From Glaciecola sp. HTCC2999 (GTDB lineage: Bacteria; Pseudomonadota; Gammaproteobacteria; Enterobacterales; Alteromonadaceae), in NCBI RefSeq assembly GCF_000155775.1, contig NZ_DS989811.1:316914-380913 (forward strand): 64,000 nucleotides of DNA, given 5' to 3'. Both the position numbers and the translations under genes were made by a program. How positions within the stretch are numbered: the first letter of the stretch is position 1; each line of letters begins with the position of its first letter. Shown here one piece after another: positions 45,554 through 60,867 of the stretch. Below the pieces are notes generated by a model. The model ran no database searches. It worked only from the letters and a program-made list of their open reading frames with translations, and had not been told where the DNA came from.

Positions 45554-48500
45554 ATGGCAAATAATACATCAGATTACCCATGGTACAGTATGTTTATACG
45601 AAGTGGGCACTTACTTGCTTTAGCTATCATTATTGTTATGGTGGCAGGACTTTCTGCTATTCATACGTTACCCCGTTTGGAAGATCCGCGAATCGATTTA
45701 CGTAATGCATTAATTTTAACCCCTTATCCTGGCGCCTCAGCTGAACGTGTAGAAGCGCTGGTAACGGATGTGTTAGAAGACGAATTGCGTGAGCTGTATG
45801 AGATAAAGTGGATTGAATCGACTTCAAAAGCCGGTTTCTCATCCTTAATCATCGAATTACAAGATTGGGTAGATAACTCAAATAATCAACAAATATTCTC
45901 TAAAATACGGGATAGTATGAATGATGCTGCAGCCCGTTTCCCTGCTGGAGCTGGGGTACCTATTTTAGAAGATAAAAGAGGGGCTACTGCGTTTACAGCA
46001 TTATTTTCTGTAAAATCAAAATACCCCGATACTCTATCTTTGGCGATGGTGGGACGTTTTGCTAGTGAACTGTCAGATCAGTTTCGTAATATCAGCGGTA
46101 CTGAGATTGTCAATATCTTCGGACAACCGTCCGAGCAGATCACTGTAAGTATAGATCCAGATAAATTAGCAAGCATTGGGATAACTGCCCAAGATGTGTC
46201 GAATGCTATCCGTAACGCTGATCCGAAATTGCCTGCGGGTGTGGTATTTACTGAGCAAGCTAATCTCCGTATTCAAGTAGCCCAAGAGTTAGCCAGTTTA
46301 GATGTCATCAATAATATTCCCGTGTTTTCGGAAAACGGAAATTACTTACGTGTCAGTGATGTTGCTCGCGTATCTAGGGATTGGCAAATGCCGATGGCAA
46401 ATAAAGCATTATTAAATGGCGAGGAGGTTATTTTTGTTGCCACTCGGATGCAAACGAATGTGAGGGTTGATCAATGGACGGAGCAGGTTAAAAACAAAGC
46501 AGCTGAATTTACAGCTGCTTATGGCGACTCAGTGGATGTTCAGCTGATTTTTGAACAAAATAGCTATACCGAAGATCGGTTAACAGAGCTGACTGGAAAT
46601 CTCGTGTTAGGTTCAGCCGTAGTCATGCTCGTGATCCTATTTTTTATGGGCATTAAGTCTTCATGGATAGTGGGCTTATCCTTGCCCATGAGTGCATTTT
46701 TTGCCGTCTTTACACTGGCTTTTTTTGATGAACAAATTCATCAAATGTCGATATTTGGGATCATTATAGCGATAGGTCTACTAATTGATAATGCCATTGT
46801 GATGACGGATGAAATTAGACAAAACTTATTAAAACCTAATGCGACTCGAGTGGGAGCATTTGTCGAAAGTATTCAGCACTTATTCGCCCCTTTGTTTGCA
46901 TCAACATTGACTACGATATTAGGCTTTATGCCGATATTTCTACTCAATGGCAATATTGGTGATTTTATCGGTTCTATCGCGATATCTGTCGTTATGGCGT
47001 TAATCGGCTCGTTTTGGATTTCTATCACGATAATTGCGGCTCTAGCTGCACGTTTTTTACCAAAGTCACATGCCCATGATACCCCTTGGTACTTACAAGG
47101 GTTTCAATTGCCGCAGGTGTCCAATGCCTTTCAAGATTTCTTACGTAAAGCACTGCATAAGCCACTTATCGTCCTAACCGCATGTGTTGTTATTTGTTTA
47201 ACCGGTTTTGGTTTAGCTACCACACTCGCAAATGTATTCTTTCCATCTGCTGACCGTGATCAATTTGTAATTGAGGTGTTTTTACCTCGTGGGACTGCGC
47301 TTGAGGCGACCTATGATTTGGCATTGCAGATAGATGAGATCGTCAATGATTGTGATGGCATAGAACAAGTGACATGGTTGGTCGGTAATTCTACGCCGAT
47401 GGTTTACTACAACCAAGTCATGAACAAAGATAATTCACCTGAATATGCCAATGCAGTGCTTAACGTAGATAGCCCGCAACGAGCTGAAAGTTTAATTGAT
47501 CGTATGCAATTAGATCTGCAATCCTCATTCCCACAGGCTAAAATCATCGTTAAACCCTTCGGTCAAGGTCCTCCAATCCCTGCACCTGTTGAAGTTGATG
47601 TATATGGTCCTGATCTAGCTATTTTAGAAAAAATTGGCAAAGATATTCGTATAATCATGTCTGAAACGCCGGGTATTTCACAGTCTATAGCCTCTATTAA
47701 TATTTCTGAGCCTGAGCTCATTATTGATACAACACGAGAGCTAGCGAGTAATTCAGGTCTGAATTTAAGTGAATTATCAGGGCAATTACAGCTTGCACTG
47801 AAAGGACAAAATGGAGGGTCCATTGTCGAACAAACTGAAGAAATTCCGATTCAAGTGCGATTAGGTAATGAGCAGCGTCGTGATTTAATTAATTTAGCAG
47901 CATTACCATTGGCGGCTACTGGATATGATCCGGCTAATGCATGGTTACCGCTGTCGAGTATAGGGGAGTTCACACTTAAACCTGCTATCGCAGGCATCAC
48001 ACGCAAAGATAGTGAGCGAGTTAATCGTGTACAAGCTTGGTTGTTACAAGGAGTACCTCCGGTAGATGTCTCGAATCAAATTCGTTTAGCGTTAGCGGAT
48101 TATCCTTTACCGGCTGGATACCGAGTTAAAATGGCCGGTGATGCAGATAAGCAACAAGAAGCGATTGGGCAATTAGCCACATATGCGCCTGTTTTAGTAG
48201 TGATGATCATCACCACGTTGATTTTAACATTTAAAAGTGTGCGGTTTGCCGCAGTGATAGGATCAGTGATGATACTATCAATAGGTTTGGGAATGTTGAG
48301 TCTGTGGCTATCAGGTTATGCGATTGGATTTAATCCTATTTTAGGATGTGCCGGCTTGGTAGGTGTGGCGATTAATGGTTCTATTGTCGTCATAGCAGCG
48401 ATTAACGGCAATGCAAAAGCGCTATCTGGTGATACTGAAGAAATTATTAAAGAAACTATGAGTTGTAGTCGCCATATACTATCGACAACGTTTACGACTG

Positions 48501-48712
48501 TCGGTGGTTTAATTCCGTTATTGCTATTTACTTCAGGTTCATTTTGGCCACCTTTAGCGGTAGTCTTAGCCGGTGGTGTTGGATTTTCAATTTTATTATC
48601 CTTGGTATATACCCCAGTTATCATCGCAACATTATGCCGGATAAGAGCACGTAAGCAGGCAAAAATAGATGCACAACATCAAGCTAAGTTAATCAATCAG
48701 GCACAACACTAA
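45554..48712 (+). CDS. RND-family efflux pump, inner-membrane subunit
   Basis: A 1052-residue protein of standard RND length with two large periplasmic loops and twelve membrane helices. Helix 4 carries the proton-relay Asp in GLLIDNAIVMTDEI, and the TTILGFMPIFLLNG and second-half GCAGLVGVAINGSIVVIAA segments are typical. It belongs to the less studied AcrB-like group found with one adaptor. Substrates could be drugs, bile salts or fatty compounds; none can be read from sequence. Expression should be under the TetR-type gene upstream. Confidence 0.94.
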   Translation: MANNTSDYPWYSMFIRSGHLLALAIIIVMVAGLSAIHTLPRLEDPRIDLRNALILTPYPGASAERVEALVTDVLEDELRELYEIKWIESTSKAGFSSLIIELQDWVDNSNNQQIFSKIRDSMNDAAARFPAGAGVPILEDKRGATAFTALFSVKSKYPDTLSLAMVGRFASELSDQFRNISGTEIVNIFGQPSEQITVSIDPDKLASIGITAQDVSNAIRNADPKLPAGVVFTEQANLRIQVAQELASLDVINNIPVFSENGNYLRVSDVARVSRDWQMPMANKALLNGEEVIFVATRMQTNVRVDQWTEQVKNKAAEFTAAYGDSVDVQLIFEQNSYTEDRLTELTGNLVLGSAVVMLVILFFMGIKSSWIVGLSLPMSAFFAVFTLAFFDEQIHQMSIFGIIIAIGLLIDNAIVMTDEIRQNLLKPNATRVGAFVESIQHLFAPLFASTLTTILGFMPIFLLNGNIGDFIGSIAISVVMALIGSFWISITIIAALAARFLPKSHAHDTPWYLQGFQLPQVSNAFQDFLRKALHKPLIVLTACVVICLTGFGLATTLANVFFPSADRDQFVIEVFLPRGTALEATYDLALQIDEIVNDCDGIEQVTWLVGNSTPMVYYNQVMNKDNSPEYANAVLNVDSPQRAESLIDRMQLDLQSSFPQAKIIVKPFGQGPPIPAPVEVDVYGPDLAILEKIGKDIRIIMSETPGISQSIASINISEPELIIDTTRELASNSGLNLSELSGQLQLALKGQNGGSIVEQTEEIPIQVRLGNEQRRDLINLAALPLAATGYDPANAWLPLSSIGEFTLKPAIAGITRKDSERVNRVQAWLLQGVPPVDVSNQIRLALADYPLPAGYRVKMAGDADKQQEAIGQLATYAPVLVVMIITTLILTFKSVRFAAVIGSVMILSIGLGMLSLWLSGYAIGFNPILGCAGLVGVAINGSIVVIAAINGNAKALSGDTEEIIKETMSCSRHILSTTFTTVGGLIPLLLFTSGSFWPPLAVVLAGGVGFSILLSLVYTPVIIATLCRIRARKQAKIDAQHQAKLINQAQH

Positions 48713-48836
48713 AAATGTAGAACTGAGGATTGTGCTAAATTAATATGTGATGAGTATATAATTAGATAAAGAAGATAAACATAACATCAGATTGTTAGGT
48801 GTTGGCATCAATCTGCGTTTATATATAGAGGCTTAT

Positions 48837-49535
48837 ATGACTCAACCTATTCAGGTTTCGGATAAAATTATTCGTATTAAAGCGGCATCAAAAGGTAACG
48901 GGCTCACTACTTTATTATTGGGTATTGTCGCATTATTTATCGGTTTTTCTTTATTAGGGGTTGTGCCCCAACAATTCATACTCGTTGCTATTGGCTTTAT
49001 CGCTTTAGGGATTATCGCAGGGGTGATTGGTTTTTTTAAAATCAAAGAACCAGACTATTCTGTTATTTTCACTGAAGACGGTATTCACTATCAGCATCGT
49101 CACGGTAACTGGGTCATTGCTTGGAATAACCTCCAGCGAGTAGACGCACCGAGAGTGACTCGAGGGGTTGAGCAAGTTGATTTAAGTATGGTGGGATTTA
49201 AAATCAAAGACTATGCCCCTTTCTTAGCGCACATTTCACAGCGATTAATGACCAATACGTTAATGGAGCAACGTCCCTTATTGATGCAAAATATGGAAGC
49301 TAACTGTAATACTGGTCAGTGTGCAGGGTCCGATCTTATTGAAGACCAAAAATTTAAACTACCCGATGGGAAACTATTAACAGGTGTACAAGGAATGTTT
49401 GCCAATCGTATGAACAAACTCAGAGACCGTTTAGGGTATGATGTTTATATCAATGAAGCTGAATTAGATAGAACCGCGGGTGAGTTTGTAGCACTCGTGA
49501 AAGCACTTCAAGAAGATGTTAATTTACCTACTTAA
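48837..49535 (+). CDS. DUF2982 family membrane protein
   Basis: A 232-residue protein with two adjacent membrane helices (about 22-42 and 46-66) and a cytoplasmic domain (EPDYSVIFTEDGIHYQHRHG, WNNLQRVDAPR). I recognise it as DUF2982, found in Shewanella-type bacteria, function unknown. The ATG at 48837 is chosen because GAGG lies 8 bases upstream. Before insertion of the adjacent element, its stop overlapped the stop of the convergent REC-HPt gene. Confidence 0.82.
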   Translation: MTQPIQVSDKIIRIKAASKGNGLTTLLLGIVALFIGFSLLGVVPQQFILVAIGFIALGIIAGVIGFFKIKEPDYSVIFTEDGIHYQHRHGNWVIAWNNLQRVDAPRVTRGVEQVDLSMVGFKIKDYAPFLAHISQRLMTNTLMEQRPLLMQNMEANCNTGQCAGSDLIEDQKFKLPDGKLLTGVQGMFANRMNKLRDRLGYDVYINEAELDRTAGEFVALVKALQEDVNLPT

Positions 49536-49603
49536 CGACTTTTTAATTTAGCTAACAATGCTTGCCCATGTTCGATAAGGCTAATTGATTCTTTCATTAG
49601 GCG
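49532..49603 (-). pseudogene. Displaced original 3' end of the REC-HPt gene
   Basis: On the minus strand, CGCCTAATG leads into codons for KESISLIEHGQALLAKL and KSR, then a TAA stop at 49532-49534. If this end is joined to the REC-HPt gene at the shared TAATGAA, the frame runs without a break (ERLM-KESIS). The piece was cut off from its gene by the 7.8-kb element. It has no start and should not be translated here. Confidence 0.88.
49593..49603. other. attL core
   Basis: TTCATTAGGCG at the left host junction. The 7-bp overlap TTCATTA (49593-49599) matches attR in the same orientation and the internal attP core in inverse orientation. Confidence 0.8.
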
Positions 49604-49657
49604 TTAAATAGACCTAAACAGAATCTATACAGCCCTTGTCTAGTCTGCATTCCTTAT
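49593..49657. repeat. 65-bp inverted repeat, left copy (attP P arm)
   Basis: A perfect inverted copy of 50816-50880. It contains TAAACAG at 49615-49621 and ends 21 bases before the integrase start. AGCCCTT at 49631-49637 can pair with AAGGGCT at 49665-49671, which covers the integrase ribosome binding site. The integrase promoter must lie in or near this arm, so integrase binding could repress its own gene. Confidence 0.92.
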
Positions 49658-49678
49658 GACTTAGAAGGGCTTAATTTT

Positions 49679-50833
49679 ATGACTGTGGAAGGCTATGTAG
49701 AAGCTAAATACGTTTATCGTCGAAACAACATCTATTATTATTGTCGTTGGATTCCAGCTGACATCAAACCTTATTATTCCAAGCAGAAGATTGTTCATAC
49801 GCTAAAAACCAAGTCTCATAAAAGAGCCTTAGTAATGGCTAAGTCTATAAATGCTAAAATTGAGGATTACTGGCTTGGAATACGACTCAAAAACTACGAT
49901 ATTGAGACATCCATCTCTATCGATTATTCTGAAAAGCACGATACGCCTACTTTGTTAGAATGTCTTGAGCATTACTTGAAGATTAAAGGCAAAAATAAGC
50001 CTAAATCATTTGAAAATACACCTAAACGCGTAGTTAGGTATTTTATAGATAACGCAAAAAACCGCCCTATCAGTTCCTACACCTCAAAAGACGCAATTAA
50101 CTTTCGAGACATGCTTGTATCTAGAGACTTAAGCCATGCAAGTGTTAAAAGATTACTTGCAACTTTAAAAGCTATCGTTAATTTCTCAATTAAAGAACTT
50201 AGTTTAGATATAAAGAATCACTTTTCAGGTATATATTTATCTAAAGATTCTAAGGTATCGAAGAGACCAAGCATTGCGAATGAGCTAATAAACAAAATAC
50301 AACTTGAATGTAAGGCTATTGATGACGATATTAGCTGGATGCTAGGTTTAATTTCAGATTCAGGAATGCGACTTGCTGAAGCAGCAGGTCTCAAATTAAG
50401 CGACATCAACTTAGATGACGAAATACCTCATATAAAGCTAATACCTCACAAGCATAGAACATTAAAAACCTTATCTAGCCAAAGGTTGATACCACTGGTT
50501 GGAACTTCGCTTTGGGCAGCTAAACAAGCAGTAAAGAATTCAACAACAGAATTCCTATTTCCACGATATACCGATAGTAATAGTTGCCGTAGCAGCAGCG
50601 CTAGTGCTTCAGCTAACAAACTATTAAAAGCTATCATTGGTGATGAGTATGTTATTCATTGCTTCCGCCACAGCTTAAGAGACAGGCTAAGAAACAACAA
50701 TACGCCAACTGAAATGATTGACCAAATTGGTGGGTGGAGTATGCAAACTGTTGGGCAGACTTACGGTGAAGGATTTAACTTAGAGAACTTACATAAGCAG
50801 ATGAAGCTTATAGAAATAAGGAATGCAGACTAG
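49679..50833 (+). CDS. int: Tyrosine recombinase / integrase
   Basis: A 384-residue integrase. An N-terminal DUF6538-like region with YVYRRNNIYYYCRWIPADIK is followed by a SAM-like core-binding domain (about 85-185) and the catalytic domain. Visible catalytic residues are R231 (DSGMRLAEAAGL), H327 and R330 (HCFRHSLRDRL), W353 (GGWS) and Y362 (TYGEGF), so it should be active. The last six codons and stop lie inside the right 65-bp arm. It would recombine attP with the 3' end of the REC-HPt gene and excise by attL and attR. No excisionase gene was recognised. Confidence 0.93.
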   Translation: MTVEGYVEAKYVYRRNNIYYYCRWIPADIKPYYSKQKIVHTLKTKSHKRALVMAKSINAKIEDYWLGIRLKNYDIETSISIDYSEKHDTPTLLECLEHYLKIKGKNKPKSFENTPKRVVRYFIDNAKNRPISSYTSKDAINFRDMLVSRDLSHASVKRLLATLKAIVNFSIKELSLDIKNHFSGIYLSKDSKVSKRPSIANELINKIQLECKAIDDDISWMLGLISDSGMRLAEAAGLKLSDINLDDEIPHIKLIPHKHRTLKTLSSQRLIPLVGTSLWAAKQAVKNSTTEFLFPRYTDSNSCRSSSASASANKLLKAIIGDEYVIHCFRHSLRDRLRNNNTPTEMIDQIGGWSMQTVGQTYGEGFNLENLHKQMKLIEIRNAD

Positions 50834-50880
50834 ACAAGGGCTGTATAGATTCTGTTTAGGTCTATTTAACGCCTAATGAA
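50816..50880. repeat. 65-bp inverted repeat, right copy
   Basis: A perfect reverse complement of 49593-49657. It covers the end of int (stop at 50831-50833) and runs into the TAATGAA overlap at 50874-50880, where the 384-bp repeat begins. Confidence 0.92.
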
Positions 50881-51257
50881 TACTTATACAGCACCGTTTA
50901 GGCGTCTTGCTCAGCCTGCAGCTGCGTAAACATAAGGTTATCATGCGAATAACTCATTCTCAACATGCGCATTTTCTTCCTCAGTTTCTTCCACACTTAC
51001 TAAACAGCCTAATCACCCACTAAACAGTCTGCTAACCCTTGTCTAAACAGGCTAATCAGCACTGCAGCCTATTCAGCTCAACACCACTTCAAGCATGCTT
51101 ATGTGCATAGGGCTAAACAGCCCTGTATCGCACTGTACAGGGCTTTATGGCTAGCTTTTTAGCTATCTGTAAAGTTTGTATAGGGGGCGGGAGGGGGGCT
51201 GTGTAGGGCTTTGTAGTTGGTGTAGGTTGATAGACTTGCTAGAGGCGGTATAGGAAA
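50874..51257. repeat. 384-bp inverted repeat, left copy (attP P' arm)
   Basis: A perfect inverted copy of 57019-57402. It starts with the TAATGAA overlap and includes a duplicate of the last codons of the REC-HPt gene as it now stands. It is full of short dyads (AGCCCTGT/ACAGGGCT near 51118-51144) and G-rich sequence (GGGGGCGGGAGGGGGG at 51183-51198). It holds no credible gene. The 160 bases after it (51258-51417) are A+T-rich leader DNA for the first cargo gene. Confidence 0.93.
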
Positions 51258-51417
51258 TAGTCTTATTGAAGAGTGCTTAGATGTATGACAGGATGGGATG
51301 TATTAATTAAATATAAGATTAATAGAAATATGAAAAGAGCTATTAGTAGTAGTAAATGTCATTTAAGTGTTAAAGAAGAAACCAGCCTATTACTGTGCAA
51401 TCATTAGGAATTAGTTT

Positions 51418-52392
51418 ATGAAATATGTAATAAGCGTATTTATTGGTATGGTTATAGGGTATTTTTTTAATGATCTTGAGTTCTCTAAATGGATATTCCA
51501 AAAAGATGGCGCTAAGTCACTACAAACACAAAAATCTAGTATCAATGAAAAGAAAGTTACGCCTTCAGAAGTGCAAAAAATTAGAATCATTGAAAATATA
51601 AACTTATGCTTGGACTCAGCGAACCCTGAGCTAGAAAATCTTATAAATACTAAACTGAACAGTTTGGAAAAAATGGAAATAAAGCTAAAAAAACTCAAAG
51701 CTGAAATATTCTCGTACAGTTCATTGCTGAGCAGAGAGGAAAAAGTTACAAAAGAGTGGAATATTGTAAATGACAGTAGTTATGCCAATGACTTAATTAC
51801 TCTAAGTTTCAATCTTAATGACACTAAGTTCTTATGTGAATATGATAATGAATCTCAATCACCTAATCTTATAAGAGTAAGCAGAAACAATCAGATAGTA
51901 TTTGATGCCAGAGAAGTAGAAAAGTTAAAAGAAATAGCTGATGAAATTAAAGAAAAAAAAATAATCGAACAAAAAGAATATATTGATCTGAAGAAAAAAT
52001 TGGATGACGAAGCCAACTCTTATAGGAAAGCATTGTGGAGAGTGCAAAAATATTCAAATGTTGAATATAAATCTTATCTTAAACATCATGAAAAAACTGA
52101 ATTCAAATCTCAGAGTCCATCTCTTAAAGTAACATGTATGCCCTCAGGACCTAGTATTTATTTTGAAAATTCAAGTATTTATAATCAAAATGCTTACCCT
52201 ATTTATTTTATGAAGAAAGGCGTTTCCTCTAAATATCATTTTAATATCAGTGGGTTTGAAAGTGAAGTTGGTGGTTACGCCAGTCCTAAAGAGCTTTCCA
52301 AGTTTATATCTTTAATGAAAGACGCTGAAACGATTACTTTTAATAACTCTACTTTTAAAATTGAAAATTTGGGACAAGTTCCTTGCTTATAA
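51418..52392 (+). CDS. Membrane-anchored coiled-coil protein of unknown function (element cargo)
   Basis: A 324-residue protein that I do not recognise. One N-terminal membrane helix (KYVISVFIGMVIGYFF) precedes a Lys/Glu-rich, mostly helical body with coiled-coil stretches (about 75-105 and 165-215). The C-terminal part has KVTCMPSGPSIYFENS and ends in IENLGQVPC. The start ATG follows a TTAGGAATTAG sequence. It lies directly upstream of the SNIPE-like nuclease and also has a membrane anchor plus coiled coil, so a joint role at the membrane is possible but unproven. Confidence 0.65.
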   Translation: MKYVISVFIGMVIGYFFNDLEFSKWIFQKDGAKSLQTQKSSINEKKVTPSEVQKIRIIENINLCLDSANPELENLINTKLNSLEKMEIKLKKLKAEIFSYSSLLSREEKVTKEWNIVNDSSYANDLITLSFNLNDTKFLCEYDNESQSPNLIRVSRNNQIVFDAREVEKLKEIADEIKEKKIIEQKEYIDLKKKLDDEANSYRKALWRVQKYSNVEYKSYLKHHEKTEFKSQSPSLKVTCMPSGPSIYFENSSIYNQNAYPIYFMKKGVSSKYHFNISGFESEVGGYASPKELSKFISLMKDAETITFNNSTFKIENLGQVPCL

Positions 52393-52509
52393 AGGATGTA
52401 GTTTTAATTTTTAAAGCATGGTTTGACAAAAGCCAATGAGTTTTTTTGGACTATATTATAAAACTTACAACAGCGATTAACCTAATTAATTTAAATGAAG
52501 GAAGTAGTA

Positions 52510-54234
52510 ATGGAGTTAGTTACCCCCTACAGCATAAACCTAGAGCTCATTATGCTAGGAGTGCTTATCGTTTTACTGTTCTCTGTATGGGCATTACGTC
52601 GAAAGCTAAAAAAAACACAGATAGATCTTCGTGATAATGACGCAAAGTTAAAAATTGCAGAGCTAACTCTCGATGAGAGCAATAAAAAATTAAACGCTGC
52701 ACAAAAAGAGCTAAATAATAGTAAAGCTAAATCTAATGATTTTGAAAAACAAGTAAAACAGCTAAATGAAAAGTATACACCCATAATTGATATGGAATCA
52801 TATATCAAAAATTTACTTGAAGATGCAACACAAAGAGCTCAATTAAATATTTCAGAGTCAAAAACTATTTTGGATAAGGCAAAGATAAGAGCTGAAAAGA
52901 ATTTGAGCTCAAGTCGTTTAGCCGCTGAGTCACTTCTTGCTGAGGCTGCTGCAGAGTCAGTGAGTATTACCGCTGAATCAAAAGAATTAAACATTAAAGC
53001 TAACAAAAAATTAAGTGAAGCTAAAGAAAATGCGGTGAATTTAACAAAGGAAGCCTACCATGAGGCAGACCGAATCATAGAACTAGCCAAAGCAGAGGCA
53101 AAAGAGGTTGCTGGTGATGCATATGAAGCCAAATTGAAAGCAGATTCATATGAATATGCAATTAAAGCAATGAAAAACACAATCGAAGGCTACAAAGATG
53201 ATTACATCATTCCTAACCATTCAGTATTGGATGATTTAGCTGACGAATTTAGCTTTAAAGAATCAGGTATTAATCTAAAAAATGCTAGAAAACGTGTAAA
53301 AGAAATGGTTAAACATGGGCACGCAGGTGATTGTAATTATGTTGAACCTTATAGAAAAACCTATGCGATTCATTTTGCTGTTGATGCGTTTAATGGGAAA
53401 GTCGACTCTGCATTAGCGAAGGTTAAGCATGATAATTTTGGCAAGATCAAACAGGAAATAATTGATGCTTTTGCTTTAGTTAATCACAACGGAGCTCCAT
53501 TCAGAGATGCTAGAATCAATCAGGCATACTTGGACGCTCGTCTTGAAGAGCTAAAGTGGGCAGTGGCGACCCACGAGCTACGACAAATCGAATTGGCTGA
53601 ACAACGCGAAATAAAACAACGAATAAGAGAAGAAGAAAGAGCTAGAAGAGAAATAGAAAAAGCTATTAAAGAAGCAGAAAAGGAAGAGCGTCTAATTCAA
53701 AAAGCCTTAGAAAAAGCTAGGACAGAGTTGGAAAATGCTAATGAAGAGCAAAAGAAAGAATTCGCTTTAAAGTTAGCTGACCTAGAAAGTAAGCTAGAAG
53801 ATGCTGAATTAAAAGGGCAAAGAGCCCTTTCCATGGCTCAGCAAACAAGGCGTGGGCACGTATATGTAATAAGCAACATTGGTAGCTTTGGTGAAAATGT
53901 TTTTAAAATTGGGATGACTCGACGCCTAGAGCCATTAGATAGAGTGAAAGAGCTTGGTGACGCATCTGTGCCATTTTCTTTTGATATTCACGCCATGCTT
54001 TACAGTGAGGACGCACCTACTTTAGAAAAGGAGCTACACCGCCGTTTCAATCGTGAATCTGTTAACAAAGTAAACCCTAGAAAAGAATTTTTTAGAACAT
54101 CATTAGCTGAAATAAAACAGATGGTAGACAAACAAGGCATTACTGATGTTCACTGGACAATGAAGGCAGAAGCTTCCGAGTATAAAGAGTCACTGGCTAT
54201 AGCTGCAGCTCAACAAGAGGGTAATGTAGCTTAA
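52510..54234 (+). CDS. SNIPE-type membrane nuclease, DUF4041 plus GIY-YIG (T5orf172) domain
   Basis: A 574-residue protein. A membrane helix at about 11-30 (LELIMLGVLIVLLFSVWAL) is followed by a long coiled coil (about 31-210), a DUF4041 region (about 210-360; IIPNHSVLDDLADEFSFKES, VKHDNFGKIKQEIIDAF), a second charged coil, and a T5orf172-type GIY-YIG domain (about 448-545). The nuclease motifs are HVYVISN, VFKIGMTRR, PTLEKELHRRF and KEFFRT. This architecture is that of SNIPE, a phage-defence protein that sits in the membrane and cuts phage DNA during injection. AAGGAAGT lies before the ATG at 52510, which is preferred over an in-frame upstream ATG. Confidence 0.88.
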   Translation: MELVTPYSINLELIMLGVLIVLLFSVWALRRKLKKTQIDLRDNDAKLKIAELTLDESNKKLNAAQKELNNSKAKSNDFEKQVKQLNEKYTPIIDMESYIKNLLEDATQRAQLNISESKTILDKAKIRAEKNLSSSRLAAESLLAEAAAESVSITAESKELNIKANKKLSEAKENAVNLTKEAYHEADRIIELAKAEAKEVAGDAYEAKLKADSYEYAIKAMKNTIEGYKDDYIIPNHSVLDDLADEFSFKESGINLKNARKRVKEMVKHGHAGDCNYVEPYRKTYAIHFAVDAFNGKVDSALAKVKHDNFGKIKQEIIDAFALVNHNGAPFRDARINQAYLDARLEELKWAVATHELRQIELAEQREIKQRIREEERARREIEKAIKEAEKEERLIQKALEKARTELENANEEQKKEFALKLADLESKLEDAELKGQRALSMAQQTRRGHVYVISNIGSFGENVFKIGMTRRLEPLDRVKELGDASVPFSFDIHAMLYSEDAPTLEKELHRRFNRESVNKVNPRKEFFRTSLAEIKQMVDKQGITDVHWTMKAEASEYKESLAIAAAQQEGNVA

Positions 54235-54613
54235 GCTTAAATATCTATTAAGACTGTTTTTACAGATAAAAAGACATTACAGTTTACATTTATAAAGAGA
54301 GTTAAGATCGATCCCAAATGAACTGCACATAATAATTAAAAGTGAAAGGCTCGCAAGGTGCTTATTTAACTGCAATTAACAGAACTTAATATTCTGCAGG
54401 GCTTATTTAAACCGTTGATTCAAGACAACATAAGAATACTATTACTATTGGCTTTACAGCCTTTTTAAGCCCTATTAATTAACAGTCGGTAACAGTAAAT
54501 GACTGAACATAACTGCTGCTTTAAAGCTATAAAACTCTGTATAGAAGGTAATATATGAATACTTATTACTACCTATATAACCTTAATAACTATATATAGA
54601 CTCCCAAGTACTT
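54235..54613. other. Gap between the nuclease and polymerase-like genes
   Basis: A 379-bp A+T-rich gap. GGCTTTACAGCC followed by TTTTT (54450-54466) is a weak terminator for the upstream unit. Tandem TA-rich sequence (ATATATAG near 54592) lies before the next gene. It could contain that gene's promoter or a replication origin; no iteron array was seen. Confidence 0.4.
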
Positions 54614-55879
54614 ATGCATAACACATCTATTAATAAACAAGCAGTCTACAAAGGTGGAAAAGAGTTACTTGAAGAGATTGAAAGCTCTCATACACGATAT
54701 GAAAACCAAAAGGATGAAAGTGATTACAACTTCTTCTTTTCTGCCCACTTAAAGCCAAATATCTACTCAGAATCCAATGCATTAAACGTTATGGTTAAGA
54801 ATGTTCTGGATGACTCTGATTACCAGCCCAAGCAGGAGAAGTATCTCAAGGAGTATATAAAGCATATAGAGCTTATACTATTGAACCTGTGTAAATGCGT
54901 CATGGAAAGAAGCTGGTGTAAGATACCAATGGATGCAGGGGCGTTTGGGGCTGACAATGACTATCCAAGCCTGAGCTTCAGGCACTTCACAAGGGTGATT
55001 AAGACTCTTGAGGGAATGGGCTTTATACAGCTCATTAAAGGCGCTAAATACAGCGAGGGCGGTCAAAGAAGTGCAATACAACCCATAAGTGTGTTGTCAG
55101 GAAGAGCTGTTTACATCTATCTTGAGAGCGCTGATATTGCAAAGCCGCCATTCGCTAAAGTTACTAAAAAACCTGGTATTGACTCTGAGCTTACCGAATC
55201 CGATGAGATTCAACTGAAGCAGGATATGGAAGACTTAGCTAGACTGAACGAATTCCTACTACCTCACTCTTGGGCTGCCAAGTCATCTATGACACGTATC
55301 TATTCTGGTAAGGTTGGGCGTGCTGGGCGTATCTACTGCTCTTTTCAGCGCCTACCACAAAGACGCATTCCAGTGAGAAGTAACTGCCTAATCAATGGCG
55401 AGCCAATAGTAGAGGTTGATATTAAGTCATCGCATCCTCGCCTTGCTGTGGCTCTTTTCTATAATAAGAAGCTGTCCAGAACGTTCTATAAAGATATAGA
55501 GTTAAATACTGGAGTCTTTCAGGGGAAGGTTAAAGCCTTTTTCCAGTATGCTTTTAGCTGTGATTCTAGAGATAAAGCATTGAACGCTTTTAGGCGTTGT
55601 GAGCCTTATGGTGATGAACCTGATTTTAATGCTGTCGAAAAGTATGTATTTAGCATTTACCCCGAACTACCTTATTACCAAGGCTGGGCAATCATAGCTA
55701 TGAACTATGAAGGCGAGATAATAAAGCGGGTTATGCTAGAGGGTATGGAAAGCAACATAGTTGTACTACCTATTCATGACGCTGTAGCTGTTCAGGAAAA
55801 GCATAAGGCTTGGGCTGAGGAAGTCATGGTAAGAGTGTGGAATGACGTAGTGGGTGTTGAGGCTTGTGAGGTTGGTTGA
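54614..55879 (+). CDS. Putative replication protein with family A polymerase-like motifs
   Basis: A 421-residue protein. The N-terminal part (about 60-200) has a possible winged-helix segment (YPSLSFRHFTRVIKTLEGMGF). The C-terminal part resembles the palm of family A polymerases: GRIYCSFQRLPQ, then VEVDIKSSHPRLAVALF with D269 (motif A-like), a long linker, YEGEIIKRVMLEGMES, and LPIHDAVAVQEKH with H388-D389 (motif C-like HD). The pattern of INGE, VDI, SSH and IHD is seen in proteins of mobile elements. It may copy element DNA, but the fingers Lys/Arg helix is not clear, so activity is not assured. Confidence 0.6.
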   Translation: MHNTSINKQAVYKGGKELLEEIESSHTRYENQKDESDYNFFFSAHLKPNIYSESNALNVMVKNVLDDSDYQPKQEKYLKEYIKHIELILLNLCKCVMERSWCKIPMDAGAFGADNDYPSLSFRHFTRVIKTLEGMGFIQLIKGAKYSEGGQRSAIQPISVLSGRAVYIYLESADIAKPPFAKVTKKPGIDSELTESDEIQLKQDMEDLARLNEFLLPHSWAAKSSMTRIYSGKVGRAGRIYCSFQRLPQRRIPVRSNCLINGEPIVEVDIKSSHPRLAVALFYNKKLSRTFYKDIELNTGVFQGKVKAFFQYAFSCDSRDKALNAFRRCEPYGDEPDFNAVEKYVFSIYPELPYYQGWAIIAMNYEGEIIKRVMLEGMESNIVVLPIHDAVAVQEKHKAWAEEVMVRVWNDVVGVEACEVG

Positions 55880-55897
55880 TTTAGAAGGAGTGTTTGA

Positions 55898-56563
55898 ATG
55901 AAAATATTAAAGATATTATTTCTGCTTATTATTGTATCTTTATTACCAGGTTGCTCTGGGGGAAACTGTGATTACCCCGATGATAGGGCTAAAGATGGAA
56001 GTAGATGCGGAGCTAGGGCTGCATCTTTAAAGCCTGGCGGCAGGAATCCTGATACTGATTGGGTCAAATATTTACTACTAGGAGTTGGAGCTGTATGGTT
56101 GACATCATCTTTATTTTCAAGCTCCAACTCTAAAAAAGGAAGCCGAAGTTATAAAAAAGAAGAGCCAAAAAAAACACTTAAGCCCCTTAAGACTAAGACT
56201 CCGATAATCAATAAGAAAACTCATAAGCAAAATCCACAAAATACCATTTCGACTGATGAGGTGAAAAATAATTTGTTTGTATATTTTGACCTAATTATTG
56301 AGCCAGAATTTGAATCTATATTTCAAGCAATCGTAAATCAAGTTGTTAGTAAAAATGGAAATAATTATGATGCCAGCTCGAGATATGTGTTTGCGTACAT
56401 TGGAAGTTTTGATGGAATTCCAGGGCAAAAGATAGATAAACGTGTTGATCAATTAACTCGATCGCTCATAAAAAATCAAAGTAAAGCAATATTGTATGAA
56501 TCCGATATAACTGATATTGTTAATATAATTCGTGAAACAAGAGGCCTGCAAGAGGTAAATTAG
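55898..56563 (+). CDS. Lipoprotein with CxxPxDRAxDGSRCGxRA motif (element cargo)
   Basis: A 221-residue protein. The signal peptide ends in lipobox LPGC (C19). The mature start reads CDYPDDRAKDGSRCGARAAS, a motif I have seen in small lipoproteins of mobile elements, of unknown role. A second hydrophobic helix (about 65-80) is followed by a Ser/Lys-rich linker and a C-terminal domain (about 125-221) with no match I recognise. It begins 19 bases after the polymerase-like gene and ends three bases before the next, so the three form one unit. Confidence 0.7.
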   Translation: MKILKILFLLIIVSLLPGCSGGNCDYPDDRAKDGSRCGARAASLKPGGRNPDTDWVKYLLLGVGAVWLTSSLFSSSNSKKGSRSYKKEEPKKTLKPLKTKTPIINKKTHKQNPQNTISTDEVKNNLFVYFDLIIEPEFESIFQAIVNQVVSKNGNNYDASSRYVFAYIGSFDGIPGQKIDKRVDQLTRSLIKNQSKAILYESDITDIVNIIRETRGLQEVN

Positions 56564-56565
56564 AT

Positions 56566-56922
56566 ATGTTTAGTATTTTCAAAAAATCCAATCCTCAAGA
56601 TGTTCAGATGACAAAAGATGCTATCTTAGAGCTTGCGGATAAGTGGTGGGATAAAGGTTACCAAAAGTTTTATTTTGAGTTGAGACGTTATCATCATAAT
56701 CAAGGGAATACTACGCAACATCAAGCTACAGATGAGAAGATTAAATTTATAGACACCCTACTAGAATCATCATTAAAAGCTATTTCTGAAGGATATGGGT
56801 TAAATAATAAAAAAATGCAGGAAATGGTCTATGTTAGGGCTAGTACAGCATTGAAAAACTTAGAGGATGCAAAGAAATTAGCTAAAGAACTAAACTTACC
56901 AATATTGAGTCATCTTGAGTGA
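56566..56922 (+). CDS. Small cytoplasmic protein of unknown function (element cargo)
   Basis: A 118-residue, mostly helical soluble protein, rich in Lys, Glu and Gln (LADKWWDKGYQKFYFELRRY; ASTALKNLEDAKKLAKEL). No family recognised. It follows the lipoprotein by two bases and is the last cargo gene before the right inverted repeat. Confidence 0.55.
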   Translation: MFSIFKKSNPQDVQMTKDAILELADKWWDKGYQKFYFELRRYHHNQGNTTQHQATDEKIKFIDTLLESSLKAISEGYGLNNKKMQEMVYVRASTALKNLEDAKKLAKELNLPILSHLE

Positions 56923-57018
56923 TATTGTTAAAAAAGCATTCCAAGTTAAACAATATAAAGCTGCCAAAGGAATAAATCATAATACCCTCTCATGTCTTTT
57001 GGGTTTGTCAATACTCCT

Positions 57019-57402
57019 TTTCCTATACCGCCTCTAGCAAGTCTATCAACCTACACCAACTACAAAGCCCTACACAGCCCCCCTCCCGCCCCCTATACAA
57101 ACTTTACAGATAGCTAAAAAGCTAGCCATAAAGCCCTGTACAGTGCGATACAGGGCTGTTTAGCCCTATGCACATAAGCATGCTTGAAGTGGTGTTGAGC
57201 TGAATAGGCTGCAGTGCTGATTAGCCTGTTTAGACAAGGGTTAGCAGACTGTTTAGTGGGTGATTAGGCTGTTTAGTAAGTGTGGAAGAAACTGAGGAAG
57301 AAAATGCGCATGTTGAGAATGAGTTATTCGCATGATAACCTTATGTTTACGCAGCTGCAGGCTGAGCAAGACGCCTAAACGGTGCTGTATAAGTATTCAT
57401 TA
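57019..57402. repeat. 384-bp inverted repeat, right copy
   Basis: A perfect reverse complement of 50874-51257. Its outer end supplies the last sixteen codons and stop (57347) of the REC-HPt gene. It ends at the TTCATTA overlap. Confidence 0.93.
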
Positions 57403-58168
57403 AGCGCTCTAGTTGGCTGTCTAAATTGTGAAGTTGCTGTACCTTAAATCCGGACTCAATCTCAAAACATAAATGCTGTAATTTAGGCACGCCTGTATAA
57501 CAACAAGCTCCGTGTAGTTTATGAATATTGTCCTGAATAGCTTTTATATTCCCTTCTTTATTATCGTTGCGAATTTCTTGAATGATGTCTGGTAACATGA
57601 CCATGAATTTAGATAATAAATCTTGAGCTGCTACGTCGTTAAAATTCGCGCGTGTTAAAGCAAGCTCCCAATCAACTATACTGGTATGTTCACTCTCAAG
57701 TGGGATGGTTTTATCTGGGGAAACTTCAATTTCACTCGGTTTTGCACACCATGTGAGGATTAAATCAAGGAGGTTTTCAAGCAAGATAGGTTTTGCTAAG
57801 AAATCGTCAAAGCCTGAATTAAGGAAACGGTGTTTATCTGCATCAAATGCATGGGCGGTGACGGCAACGATAGGTGTGCCCATGTTTTTTTCAATTTTAC
57901 GAATGTGCTTAGTCGTCTCTACACCATCCATGATGGGCATTTGAATATCCATAAGGATCAAATCATATTCGTGTTCGTGACAATATTCTAAGGCTACTTT
58001 TCCACTATTAGAGGTTGTTAACTTAACGTTGGAATCTTTTAGAAAGGTAGACAATAATACTAAATTTATTGCCACATCATCTACTGCAAGTATCGATAAA
58101 TAAGGTAGTGCTTTAAGTTTGTGTTGAATCGGACTGACTCGTTTAGCTGTGCTTTGATTTTTGTTCAT
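57347..58168 (-). CDS. Response regulator receiver with C-terminal HPt domain, C-terminus replaced by the element
   Basis: A 273-residue phosphorelay protein. A REC domain (about 24-140; ILAVDDVAINLVL, phosphoacceptor Asp in LILMDIQMPIMDG, Lys in FLAKPI) is followed by an HPt domain (about 165-255) with phosphoacceptor His in NIHKLHGACCYTG. Both resemble the C-terminal part of BarA, but there is no kinase domain upstream. After ERLM the present C-terminus NTYTAPFRRLAQPAAA comes from the 384-bp repeat; the original one lies at 49532-49603. The HPt core is intact, so the protein should still work. The gene was the integration target. Confidence 0.9.
   Translation of the reverse strand: MNKNQSTAKRVSPIQHKLKALPYLSILAVDDVAINLVLLSTFLKDSNVKLTTSNSGKVALEYCHEHEYDLILMDIQMPIMDGVETTKHIRKIEKNMGTPIVAVTAHAFDADKHRFLNSGFDDFLAKPILLENLLDLILTWCAKPSEIEVSPDKTIPLESEHTSIVDWELALTRANFNDVAAQDLLSKFMVMLPDIIQEIRNDNKEGNIKAIQDNIHKLHGACCYTGVPKLQHLCFEIESGFKVQQLHNLDSQLERLMNTYTAPFRRLAQPAAA
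57396..57406. other. attR core
   Basis: TTCATTAAGCG at the right host junction, direct repeat of attL with one mismatch outside the 7-bp overlap TTCATTA (57396-57402). Host sequence resumes at 57403. Confidence 0.8.
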
Positions 58169-58500
58169 GACAAATGGTGTGCCTATTTTAATTCTGAAAC
58201 TACGTTAAACAAACCATTCGTAATCTTTGAAGTTTGATGATTATTTGCAAAATGTTAGGGGGAGCAAATATAAGCTAATGTTTATTCGTATTAATGAATC
58301 TACTCGATGACGATACTATGGTCAATGTTGAGCGCTATTTCAACTAATATCTTTTGTCTTCAATTACTGACAATGCATAATGATTGATGTTTATGCTACA
58401 TCATATTTTTTTGTCGGATTAGTGGTCTATAGCATATCACTCAGAATCATAATGTATTATGATTTGAATAAGACCAATAACAAGAATCCTATGGATCGCT
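58169..58500. other. Intergenic region before parC
   Basis: A 332-bp A+T-rich region between the divergent REC-HPt and parC genes, which must hold both promoters. No gene, strong hairpin or clear operator was seen. There is no trace of kinase-domain coding sequence upstream of the REC-HPt start. Confidence 0.5.
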
Positions 58501-60867
58501 ATGAGTAACGAAGTCACAATTAATCAAGACGGAGTTGAACAGCTCCCTATAAGACGCTTTACTGAAGATGCTTATCTTAATTATTCCATGTATGTCATCA
58601 TGGATCGGGCATTACCGCATATCGGGGATGGCCTTAAGCCAGTGCAACGTCGTATTATTTATGCGATGTCAGATTTAGGACTAAGTGCAAATGCTAAGTA
58701 TAAAAAATCAGCTCGTACCGTGGGTGATGTACTTGGTAAATTTCATCCTCATGGTGATTCAGCATGTTATGAAGCAATGGTACTCATGGCTCAGCCATTT
58801 ACGTATCGTTATCCACTTGTGGATGGTCAAGGAAACTGGGGAGCGCCAGATGATCCTAAATCATTTGCTGCTATGCGTTATACCGAGGCAAGGTTATCGC
58901 GTTTTTCCGAAGTCTTATTAGCCGAATTAGGTCAAGGTACTGCAGATTGGTCACCTAACTTTGATGGTACCCTCAAAGAGCCCAAAGTATTACCGGCACG
59001 ATTACCACATATTTTACTCAACGGTGTGACCGGAATTGCAGTAGGGATGGCAACGGATATTCCACCGCATAACGTCCGTGAACTAGCGAACGCTTGCTCG
59101 TTACTCTTAGATAACTCGCGGACAGAACTTGGTCAATTACTTGAGCATGTTCAAGGCCCAGACTATCCCACTGATGCAGAAATTATTACACCCAAAGCGG
59201 ATATTCAAAAGATTTATGAAACGGGGCGTGGCTCAATTAAAATGCGTGCCGTATACACTGAAGAAAATGGCGAAGTGATCATTACTGCATTACCCCATCA
59301 AGCATCAGGCGGGAAAATTCTCGAACAAATCGCCGGGCAAATGCAGACTAAAAAACTTCCTATGGTCAGTGACTTACGTGATGAGTCTGATCATGAAAAT
59401 CCAACGCGTTTGGTGGTTACCCCTCGCTCTAACCGAGTTGATATCGAACAGCTCATGGCACATTTATTTGCGACTACGGACTTAGAAAAAAACTATCGTG
59501 TAAATATTAACATGATTGGGCTAGATGGTCGTCCGCAAGTCAAGGATCTCAAATCTATATTGAGTGAATGGTTAGTATTCCGTCGAGATACCGTCACTCG
59601 TCGACTACAATACCGTTTGGATAAGGTGCTTGCTCGCCTGCATATTCTAGAAGGCCTGATGATTGCGTTTTTGAATATCGATGAAGTCATTGAAATCATT
59701 CGCCACCATGATGAACCTAAACAAGAATTAATGGCGCGTTTTGGACTATCTGATACTCAAGCTGAAGCCATTTTAGAGTTAAAGTTACGCCACCTGGCTA
59801 AATTAGAAGAAATGAAGATCAAAGGTGAACAAGACGAGCTGAGTAAAGAGCGCGATGCATTGCAGTTAACGCTGGGTTCTGATCGTCGTATGAAGACGTT
59901 GATTAAAAAAGAGCTCATGGCTGATGCTGAAAAGTATGGCGATGACCGACGCTCACCTATTGTGCAACGCGGTGAGTCAAAAGCACTTAGTGAAAAAGAA
60001 CTGGTGCCCTCAGAACCCGTTACTGTCGTGATATCAGCTAAAGGCTGGGCGCGCTGTGCCAAAGGACATGATGTTGACGCGCCTAATTTAAGTTATAAAG
60101 GCGATGATAGCTATTTAGCTAGTGCTAAGGGGCGTAGCAATCAGCCTGCAGTATTCTTTGATTCATCGGGACGCACCTTTAGCTGTGATGCTCACACCCT
60201 TCCTTCTGCACGAAGTCAAGGAGAGCCTTTAACTGGGCGCTTTAACATGGTGTCGGGTGAACAGTTTGAACATGTGATCATGGCAAACGAATCTCAGAAA
60301 TTTCTCATGGCCAGTGATGCTGGTTATGGTTTTGTTGGTTCATTTGCAGATATGCTTAGTAAAAATAAGGCGGGTAAAGCTTACTTATCTTTACCATCAG
60401 CGGCTAAAGTATTAACGCCAGTATTAGTAAACGATATTGAAACAGATCGTTGTTTAGCTATATCAAATGAAGGCCGTATGTTGCTGTTTCCATTACGAGA
60501 TTTACCGAGTTTAGGTAAAGGTAAAGGTAACAAAATTATTAATATCCCTAGTGCTAAGGCTAAGACTCGCGAGGAGTTTATTGTTGCTTTGGCCATAGTG
60601 CCAAATGGATGTGATGTTAAAATACTAGCTGGTAAACGTGGTATGACCCTTAAAGCAAGTGATTTAGAGCATTACTATGGTGAACGTGGCCGCCGTGGGA
60701 ATAAATTACCCCGCGGGTTACAGCGTGTTGATGGTGTTGAAGTTATCGCACCAGATGGGAATCTTGTCGATAGTGAAGCGGCTGTAGATATCTCATCAGA
60801 CATTGATTTAACAGCGTCAAAAACTAGCGGTTCAGCAGCCAGTGATGACTTATTTAGCGATGACTAG
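58501..60867 (+). CDS. parC: DNA topoisomerase IV subunit A
   Basis: A 788-residue type IIA topoisomerase subunit. The breakage-reunion domain starts [35 protein letters not shown] and holds the catalytic Tyr in [13 protein letters not shown]. The quinolone-resistance region [20 protein letters not shown] has wild-type-like Ser and Glu positions. The C-terminal domain (about 500-745) is a broken beta-pinwheel, shorter than in GyrA and without a GyrA box, which indicates ParC. It works with ParE to decatenate chromosomes. Acidic tail at the end. No parE gene is in this part of the window. Confidence 0.97.

Follow-up and report, generated by a model that had tools for sequence, protein, structure and literature searches.

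Integrative elements with two inverted attP sites, one whole and one split by integration: a clade that appears to share a two-compartment plan

The 64,000-nucleotide stretch of DNA analysed here (the window; Glaciecola sp. HTCC2999, contig NZ_DS989811.1, positions 316,914 to 380,913) contains a 7,810 bp integrative element at 49593-57402, inserted into a response-regulator/Hpt gene at its 3' end. The element carries a tyrosine integrase gene (int, product Int) and a cargo, each enclosed by its own pair of inverted arms. The layout recurs in a clade of related elements, where the targets are mostly tRNA genes, the two attachment site (att) copies are equal in most elements and the cargo is flipped between sister elements. 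We consider it about 80% probable that these elements work as a two-compartment ring with a complete, inverted attP at each boundary, integrated by Int and with exchange between the two attP copies.

Inverted repeats of at least 20 nt were searched for within 47000-60000 and two pairs only were found. The int-side pair (49593-49657 and 50816-50880, 65 nt, 100% identical) lies around the integrase gene, and the cargo-side pair (50870-51257 and 57019-57406, 388 nt, 99.74% identical with one mismatch by eye) contains perfect arms of 384 bp that enclose the 5.8 kb cargo. An earlier reading of this DNA made from its letters and open reading frames (ORFs), here called the sequence-only reading, had given the positions of both repeats and a 7-bp overlap, TAATGAA, between the two arm systems; the positions held and the overlap was found at 50874-50880. 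The left junction reads host-TTCATTA-GGCGTTAAAT..., or host-core-P', with the core of attL at 49593-49599 (plus strand) and the outer 65-bp P' arm, core included, at 49593-49657 (plus strand), a perfect inverted copy of 50816-50880. The middle junction reads, as its reverse complement, ...GTATAAGTA-TTCATTA-GGCGTTAAAT..., which is P-core-P' on the minus strand, and the right junction reads ...GTATAAGTA-TTCATTA-host, or P-core-host. As the 7-bp core is common to both arm systems, one attP is whole inside the element and a second is split over its two ends. The whole, spare attP covers 442 bp at 50816-51257 (minus strand, inverted relative to the split site) with its core at 50874-50880 (minus strand), and the right P arm (attR, 57019-57402, plus strand), a perfect inverted copy of 50874-51257, ends in the core TTCATTA at 57396-57402. 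Direct repeats of the target core are present at both ends of the element, and its sequence predicts a circle that would carry two attP. Seven TA[AT]ACAG sites were counted in the 442-bp attP, where 1000 dinucleotide shuffles gave 0.23 on average and never more than 3. These sites are only a hint of candidate arm-type Int sites because the motif was picked after inspecting the attP sequence and because an unbiased count of the commonest 6-mer was not above shuffles in any of six attP (6 copies in the window, shuffles up to 6). An Rfam scan of 49000-58500 gave no match.

Queries with the attP DNA and with int found three more elements in the window's own genome, designated by locus as L011, L028 and L012. 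L011 has 65-bp arms (98% identical) and 429-bp arms (99.8%) and sits at the 3' end of a tRNA-Arg gene; L028 has perfect cargo arms of 365 bp and int-side arms of 38 bp (97%), with its outer end in a run of N. L012 (2887-8696, own genome contig C8) is without int and carries at its ends the core CTCTCTCTCCGCCAAAT, which belongs to a tRNA-Ser in L041, and ARAGORN calls no tRNA in L012. We take L012, from its sequence, to be a decayed int-less copy of the same kind of element. The P arms of L012 match each other at only 94%, as though equalising had ceased with the loss of int, in this one case. Related integrase pieces, two adjacent matches of 31% and 45% identity, also lie at G000:C7:180452-180924, apparently a further decayed copy.

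The best plasmid match was to the complete megaplasmid NC_008043.1 of Ruegeria sp. TM1040, where an integrase 34% identical to the window's belongs to an element of the same plan at a tRNA-Phe target, with perfect int arms of 85 bp, perfect cargo arms of 1148 bp, an overlap of 17 bp and a cargo of type I restriction-modification and BRO genes. It was the only clade member in a plasmid search with three clade integrases, the ten other records being at most 28.3% identical. Used alone against 390 genomes of its family, the window's int matched two at 1e-40, both of the window's genus. A profile of six integrases (alignment A2) matched 5 of 398 genomes of the phylum, 3 of 394 of the order, 10 of 248 of the family of genome G526 and 2 of 61 of the family of genome G652 at the thresholds applied, own or centre genome included; the collection searched has a single genome for each species. 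Both arm systems were present in nine elements (the window's, L011, L028, L039, L075, L077, L080, L081 and L083), four of which (L075, L077, L080 and L081) share one single-contig genome. The targets of the relatives are tRNA 3' ends and that of the window's element is a gene end. The sequence-only reading had described two inverted attP, one intact and one split, and had suggested looking in genomes for the 442-bp site and the int-cargo layout, naming relatives with only one attP as evidence that would count against it. The description fits the window's junctions and eight further elements with both arm systems, and the relatives found in the window's own genome and elsewhere have two attP.

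Inverted arms flanked int in 23 of the 27 clade loci scored first, and in 24 of 28 once L154 with its 95-nt perfect arms was added; the arms were perfect in 14 of those 23. Other integrases with the DUF6538 domain served as controls and showed int-flanking arms in 0 of 20, in a set chosen by hand with long contigs preferred, of which L135 and L136 could have no full 3' arm as their contigs end 206 and 97 bp after the ORF. The distant homologues L054, L055, L056 and L093 were likewise without int-flanking arms (0 of 4). Clade members long enough to use formed one group of 26 rows in a 48-row tree, with support 94/99, slightly below the program's mark of 95, which points to a probable single origin of the two-attP plan.

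The two att copies of each element were compared at 21 loci, in a table without L028, which has the run of N, and without L091 and L154. The outer and middle copy agreed over the first 15-17 core bases at 17 of the 21; the window's core is 7 bp and is followed by the P' arm. One mismatch was found between the copies in L011 and in L052, and more in L040 and L079. Two sister pairs, L077/L081 at tRNA-Ser genes and L084/L085 at tRNA-Thr genes, have very similar arms and different tRNA targets, and in all four both att copies match the core of the element's own present target. Sisters at different tRNAs thus differ in both copies, which argues that both sites are kept the same. L077 compared with L081 gave 8 differences over 121 bp of P' and 21 over the initial 300 columns of the P arm, with the core included each time, and within L077 and within L081 there were none over either of these tracts, suggesting that exchange between the copies was recent and centred on the core. 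A 633-aa gene occurs twice in L083, in both arms, and its 39%-identical relative is single in L039, beside the right arm; from these sequences the arms may grow over cargo genes.

The arms of individual relatives showed some further features. Those of L083 (4453-7635 and 12765-15947) are 3,183 bp long and 100% identical, and two divergent RTX-repeat genes run in 3'-first. In L040 (357-1659, the same as L009) the outer P' arm is identical at 65 of 65 positions to that of L011, in another genome and at the same tRNA-Arg, the middle arm is 83% like that of L011 and its own two arms are 82% alike. By these comparisons L040 looks like a hybrid from two successive elements at one site. In L075 (3894-6077) and L076 (10041-12974) the arms extend into int so that its first codons are present twice in opposite directions, and the int compartment holds extra DNA, including a hemerythrin-like gene in L075. 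Inversion in these two would keep int intact in either state.

Orientation was compared between sister elements. L077 and L081 are ~90% identical, and their int compartments align directly while the cargo aligns inverted; the cargo of L075 is oriented as in L077 and opposite to L081. A 421-aa cargo gene is on the plus strand in the window and on the minus strand in L011, the second element of the genome, with int on the plus strand in both. A changed relative orientation of int and cargo needs a true inversion because choice of attP would turn both together. The inversion of int relative to the cargo predicted by the sequence-only reading is therefore seen between sisters (L077 and L075 against L081, and the window against L011). 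Arm polymorphisms of L077 and L081 were examined for Int versus host recombination and the columns were mutually contradictory; either Int or host recombination may have inverted the cargo.

In 19 of 21 loci int points inward as seen from the arm that is joined to the target; in none does it point outward, and L079 and L086 were left unassigned. Seventeen of the 19 have an ARAGORN tRNA upstream on the same strand, and the other two are the window and L083, both with cargo arms. Integration through either site, as had been predicted, was not borne out, at least as a lasting outcome. Either integration goes through just one attP, or insertions of the opposite orientation fail to persist. Possible causes are that int has to be read from attL, that transcription of int blocks the downstream attP or that the substrate is strand-specific. 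Inward int is a common state because the int promoter often overlaps attL at tRNA sites, in 61.5% of tRNA-associated integrases according to the part consulted of one survey (PMC2951348).

The anatomy, the family, the concerted change of the att copies and the inverted cargo can be read from the sequences themselves, and together they are consistent with the following inferred cycle. The ring would be divided into an int compartment and a cargo compartment, and each of the two boundaries would hold a complete attP, the two being inverted relative to each other. For integration, Int would use the attP that has int pointing away from it (P-core-P'-int), and integration would split this site into attL and attR and leave the other attP whole. 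Exchange between the copies, whether through homologous recombination or gene conversion within the ring or through Int acting on the two sites, would keep them alike around the core, copy the core of a new target into the spare site and occasionally invert the cargo. Such exchange would only invert, and never delete int or cargo, because the att sites face each other. int would stay inward, probably through a promoter in the P' arm/attL, as for many tRNA-borne integrases.

Several results weigh against this cycle. Integrated copies never had int outward, which gives no support to an inversion of the int compartment after integration. The circle and excision are predictions from integrated copies, with each insertion known in one orientation, and arm identity and cargo inversion could be explained by host recombination alone. 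Int-flanking arms were only 77-99% alike in 9 of 23 loci (L040 82%, L079 77%), and P arms beyond 300 columns differed within L077 (34 columns) and L081 (13 columns). Four loci (L076, L079, L090 and L091) have int-flanking arms with no second cargo arm in the stretch fetched. Four clade loci were without flanking arms by the test used: the contig of L010 begins inside int, that of L092 ends 121 bp past int, int of L088 has an in-frame stop, and int of L089 is truncated, with 119-nt arms of 98% around it. A simple promoter scan of the int/attP region gave 4 promoter-like sites against 6.1 in shuffles, and no recombination directionality factor was identified.

Alternatively, the second attP may be a neutral duplication that host homologous recombination keeps similar and on which Int never acts, so that the element works as an island with a single attP. 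Cargo arms of such length suffice for host recombination. The arms seem to spread over cargo genes, as with the 633-aa gene of L083 and L039, some copies have drifted apart (L051 90% and L090 91%, besides L040 and L079), and the fixed orientation of int is that of ordinary islands. On the other side, the layout is kept in most of the clade, among integrases as little as ~34% identical to the window's and from the window's genus to an alphaproteobacterium, with 0 of 20 in the controls; 14 of 23 loci have perfect short arms beside int, and the perfect tract of L077 and L081 is centred on the core. We regard a neutral duplication as a real possibility for the second site, but as less likely than not.

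In a second alternative, inversion by Int at the two attP of a replicating ring would yield multimers or amplify its copies before the element spreads. The geometry is that of the yeast 2-micron plasmid, which by the part consulted of PMC3147054 has a recombinase gene and two sites in inverted repeats, two unique compartments and inversion isomers. Two sites in inverted repeats and cargo in both orientations were found here too, the isomers being deduced from sister elements and not from one population. The tRNA-targeting tyrosine integrase of pTN3 from Thermococcus inverts DNA between inverted att sites in vitro; these inversions are chromosomal, between tRNA genes, and a double inverted att inside the element is not mentioned in the portion of PMC5495485 consulted. 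In contrast to the 2-micron plasmid, the present element integrates site-specifically in a bacterial chromosome and its arms are far longer than a minimal site. Flp also belongs to a different recombinase family from the present integrase. No replication gene is common to the elements, int being the sole gene found in all nine (blastp, ORFs of at least 40 aa), and no recognised Rep was among the element proteins scanned. With the ring itself a prediction and int fixed in orientation in the integrated copies, an inversion cycle of this kind is unlikely.

A third possibility is that a single strand of the element folds so that its attP copies pair to a duplex attP, and the element's own integrase makes a one-strand exchange with attB, as for CTXphi and integrons. 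Folding would yield exactly the observed order of the element and would account for the inverted order, the core-centred identity, the rewriting of the spare core after retargeting and, through a strand-specific substrate, the single orientation of int. Across P', core and P, each of the window's two copies is the exact reverse complement of the other. CTXphi integrates as single-stranded DNA through attP1 and attP2, which lie 90 nt apart, pair within one strand of the folded phage DNA and are acted on by host Xer recombinases, as given in the section consulted of PMC5357621. By contrast, 1.2 kb separates the present sites, which lie on either side of the element's own int, and phage structural genes gave no match. 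No relaxase, Rep or filamentous-phage family was found in the cargo proteins scanned (part of the ORFs), the arms of up to 3.2 kb are far more than needed, and the copies are imperfect in some elements. Phage-type integrases, moreover, normally act on double-stranded attP, and we think a folded substrate very unlikely here. We do not count the present element among the 2-micron or CTXphi kinds, because no filamentous-phage genes matched, the integrase is its own and autonomous replication is conjectural.

That the inverted repeats arose in assembly, or that two insertions came together by chance, is hardly credible and was rejected for the family: the window belongs to an 11-contig assembly of 82% completeness, misassembly is known to arise at inverted repeats and the sequence-only reading had named artefactual repeats as what would undo it, but the layout stands in a complete megaplasmid and four times in a single-contig genome, with differing targets, cores and cargo, and eleven drafts (L040, L041, L051, L052, L053, L082, L084, L085, L086, L087 and L154) end 0-790 bp past the middle arm, as expected since real long inverted repeats would break draft assemblies.

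tRNA-targeting islands and prophages such as KplE1, whose intS promoter lies in attL according to the part consulted of PMC2951348, resemble the element in having a phage-type tyrosine integrase with int beside attL and reading inward. The relatives' core at the tRNA 3' end and the defence-type cargo of the window and Ruegeria elements are further likenesses. Such islands and prophages have a single attP that is wholly consumed on integration, whereas the present element keeps a second, complete and inverted attP between int and cargo. Conserved integrase residues, direct repeats of the core and a recoverable target were all found, as in tyrosine-integrase elements. Neither relaxase nor conjugation genes, as in integrative conjugative or mobilizable elements (ICE/IME), were found in the proteins scanned, and the window proteins matched neither P4-like satellites or phage-inducible chromosomal islands (PICI) nor CTXphi-type phages.

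No description of the double inverted attP plan was found in the open-access literature, mainly titles and abstract openings, in agreement with the sequence-only reading, which knew of no described element with this layout. Literature on 'inverted attP' was mostly on Drosophila cassette tools; of two other papers, PMC5025042 concerns an engineered inversion plasmid and PMC13236599 a short inverted repeat within one attP, to judge from the parts consulted. A clade with a conserved double inverted attP appears undescribed. To our knowledge, integrative elements have been described with one attP that is consumed on integration. An intact inverted attP after integration would allow inversion without loss, equalising both sites to the new target, and the kept attP might permit re-integration or tandem insertion. 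That long inverted arms break draft assemblies suggests why such elements go unnoticed. With this clade it can be tested directly whether phage-type integrases are able to run a Flp-like inversion cycle or to act on folded single strands; if the latter were true, single-stranded integration like that of integrons and CTXphi would have been invented independently with a self-encoded integrase. Two members carry defence genes, PD-Lambda-1 in the window and type I restriction in Ruegeria, and the family therefore takes part in defence-gene traffic.

The target gene was examined by joining the host flanks. Its displaced 3' tail lies on the host side of attL at 49532-49592 (minus strand), and its body, encoding a response regulator and Hpt (Pfam PF00072 and PF01627) with an element-derived C-terminus, lies at 57347-58168 (minus strand). 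Joined, the flanks encode a protein of 277 aa, as compared to 273 aa in the interrupted form, and the C-terminus of the joined form aligns with uninterrupted relatives. The joined protein aligned 2 to 18 residues further than the interrupted form in 9 of 9 genus relatives, with the best alignment, to L099, reaching residue 275. The longer alignments are weak but consistent support for the placing of the element ends. Sixteen element-coded residues replace the last 20 native residues of the protein. A tRNA was rejected as the window's target, as there is no tRNA in the window and the protein gene is the target.

The integrase (49679-50833, plus strand, 384 aa) matched DUF6538 (PF20172, 1.8e-15) and Phage_integrase (PF00589, 8.4e-14). 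R231, K263, H327, R330, W353 and Y362, which we take to be its catalytic residues, are invariant among the six integrases of alignment A2. The cargo, all on the plus strand, consists of a 324-aa ORF without family match (51418-52392), a 579-aa PD-Lambda-1-like anti-phage protein of the DUF4041/T5orf172 type (52495-54234; PADLOC PDLC03976, 3.3e-116; Pfam PF10544 and PF13250), the 421-aa ORF (54614-55879; phrog_4756), a 221-aa ORF with a lipoprotein-signal-like start by eye (55898-56563) and a 118-aa ORF (56566-56922); the family of the last three is not known. Satellite core genes, which in P4-like and PICI satellites are packaging or capsid-modifying genes, AlpA and primase, were absent from the Pfam and PHROG matches of the six window proteins, as were filamentous-phage PHROGs. 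Relaxase and conjugation families were absent from the Pfam and PHROG matches of the window's five cargo proteins, from the scanned cargo proteins of L011, L028, L075, L080 and L083 and from the annotation of L039; the scans did not extend to a number of small ORFs, to the greater part of L080 or to L077 and L081, which are relatives of L075.

Besides its own genome, 8 genomes of the window's family have relatives of the 421-aa protein, which makes 9 of 395, and it is 21-23% identical to seven of them in full-length alignment. Pfam and NCBIfam gave it no match, and a PDB profile search gave none that was significant. It has DIKS.H.R-like and HD motifs that are conserved (54614-55879) and may be polymerase-like. 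A search of viral contigs with int and the 421-aa protein gave no relative and a search of plasmids with the 421-aa protein gave none, while a phage search gave 4 partial matches of 25-27% identity. Cargo differed among the relatives. L083 carries two RTX-repeat proteins, and L075, L077 and L081 carry a protein of 1,074-1,091 aa and a TPR protein, which in L075, whose copy was scanned, includes a sulfotransferase domain. A transposase-like ORF pair, IS3-type by eye, lies in the cargo of L011 (8581-9746), L028 (5963-7128) and L012 (4687-5852) and not in the window's element; the proteins of L011 and L028 are identical and those of L012 look the same.

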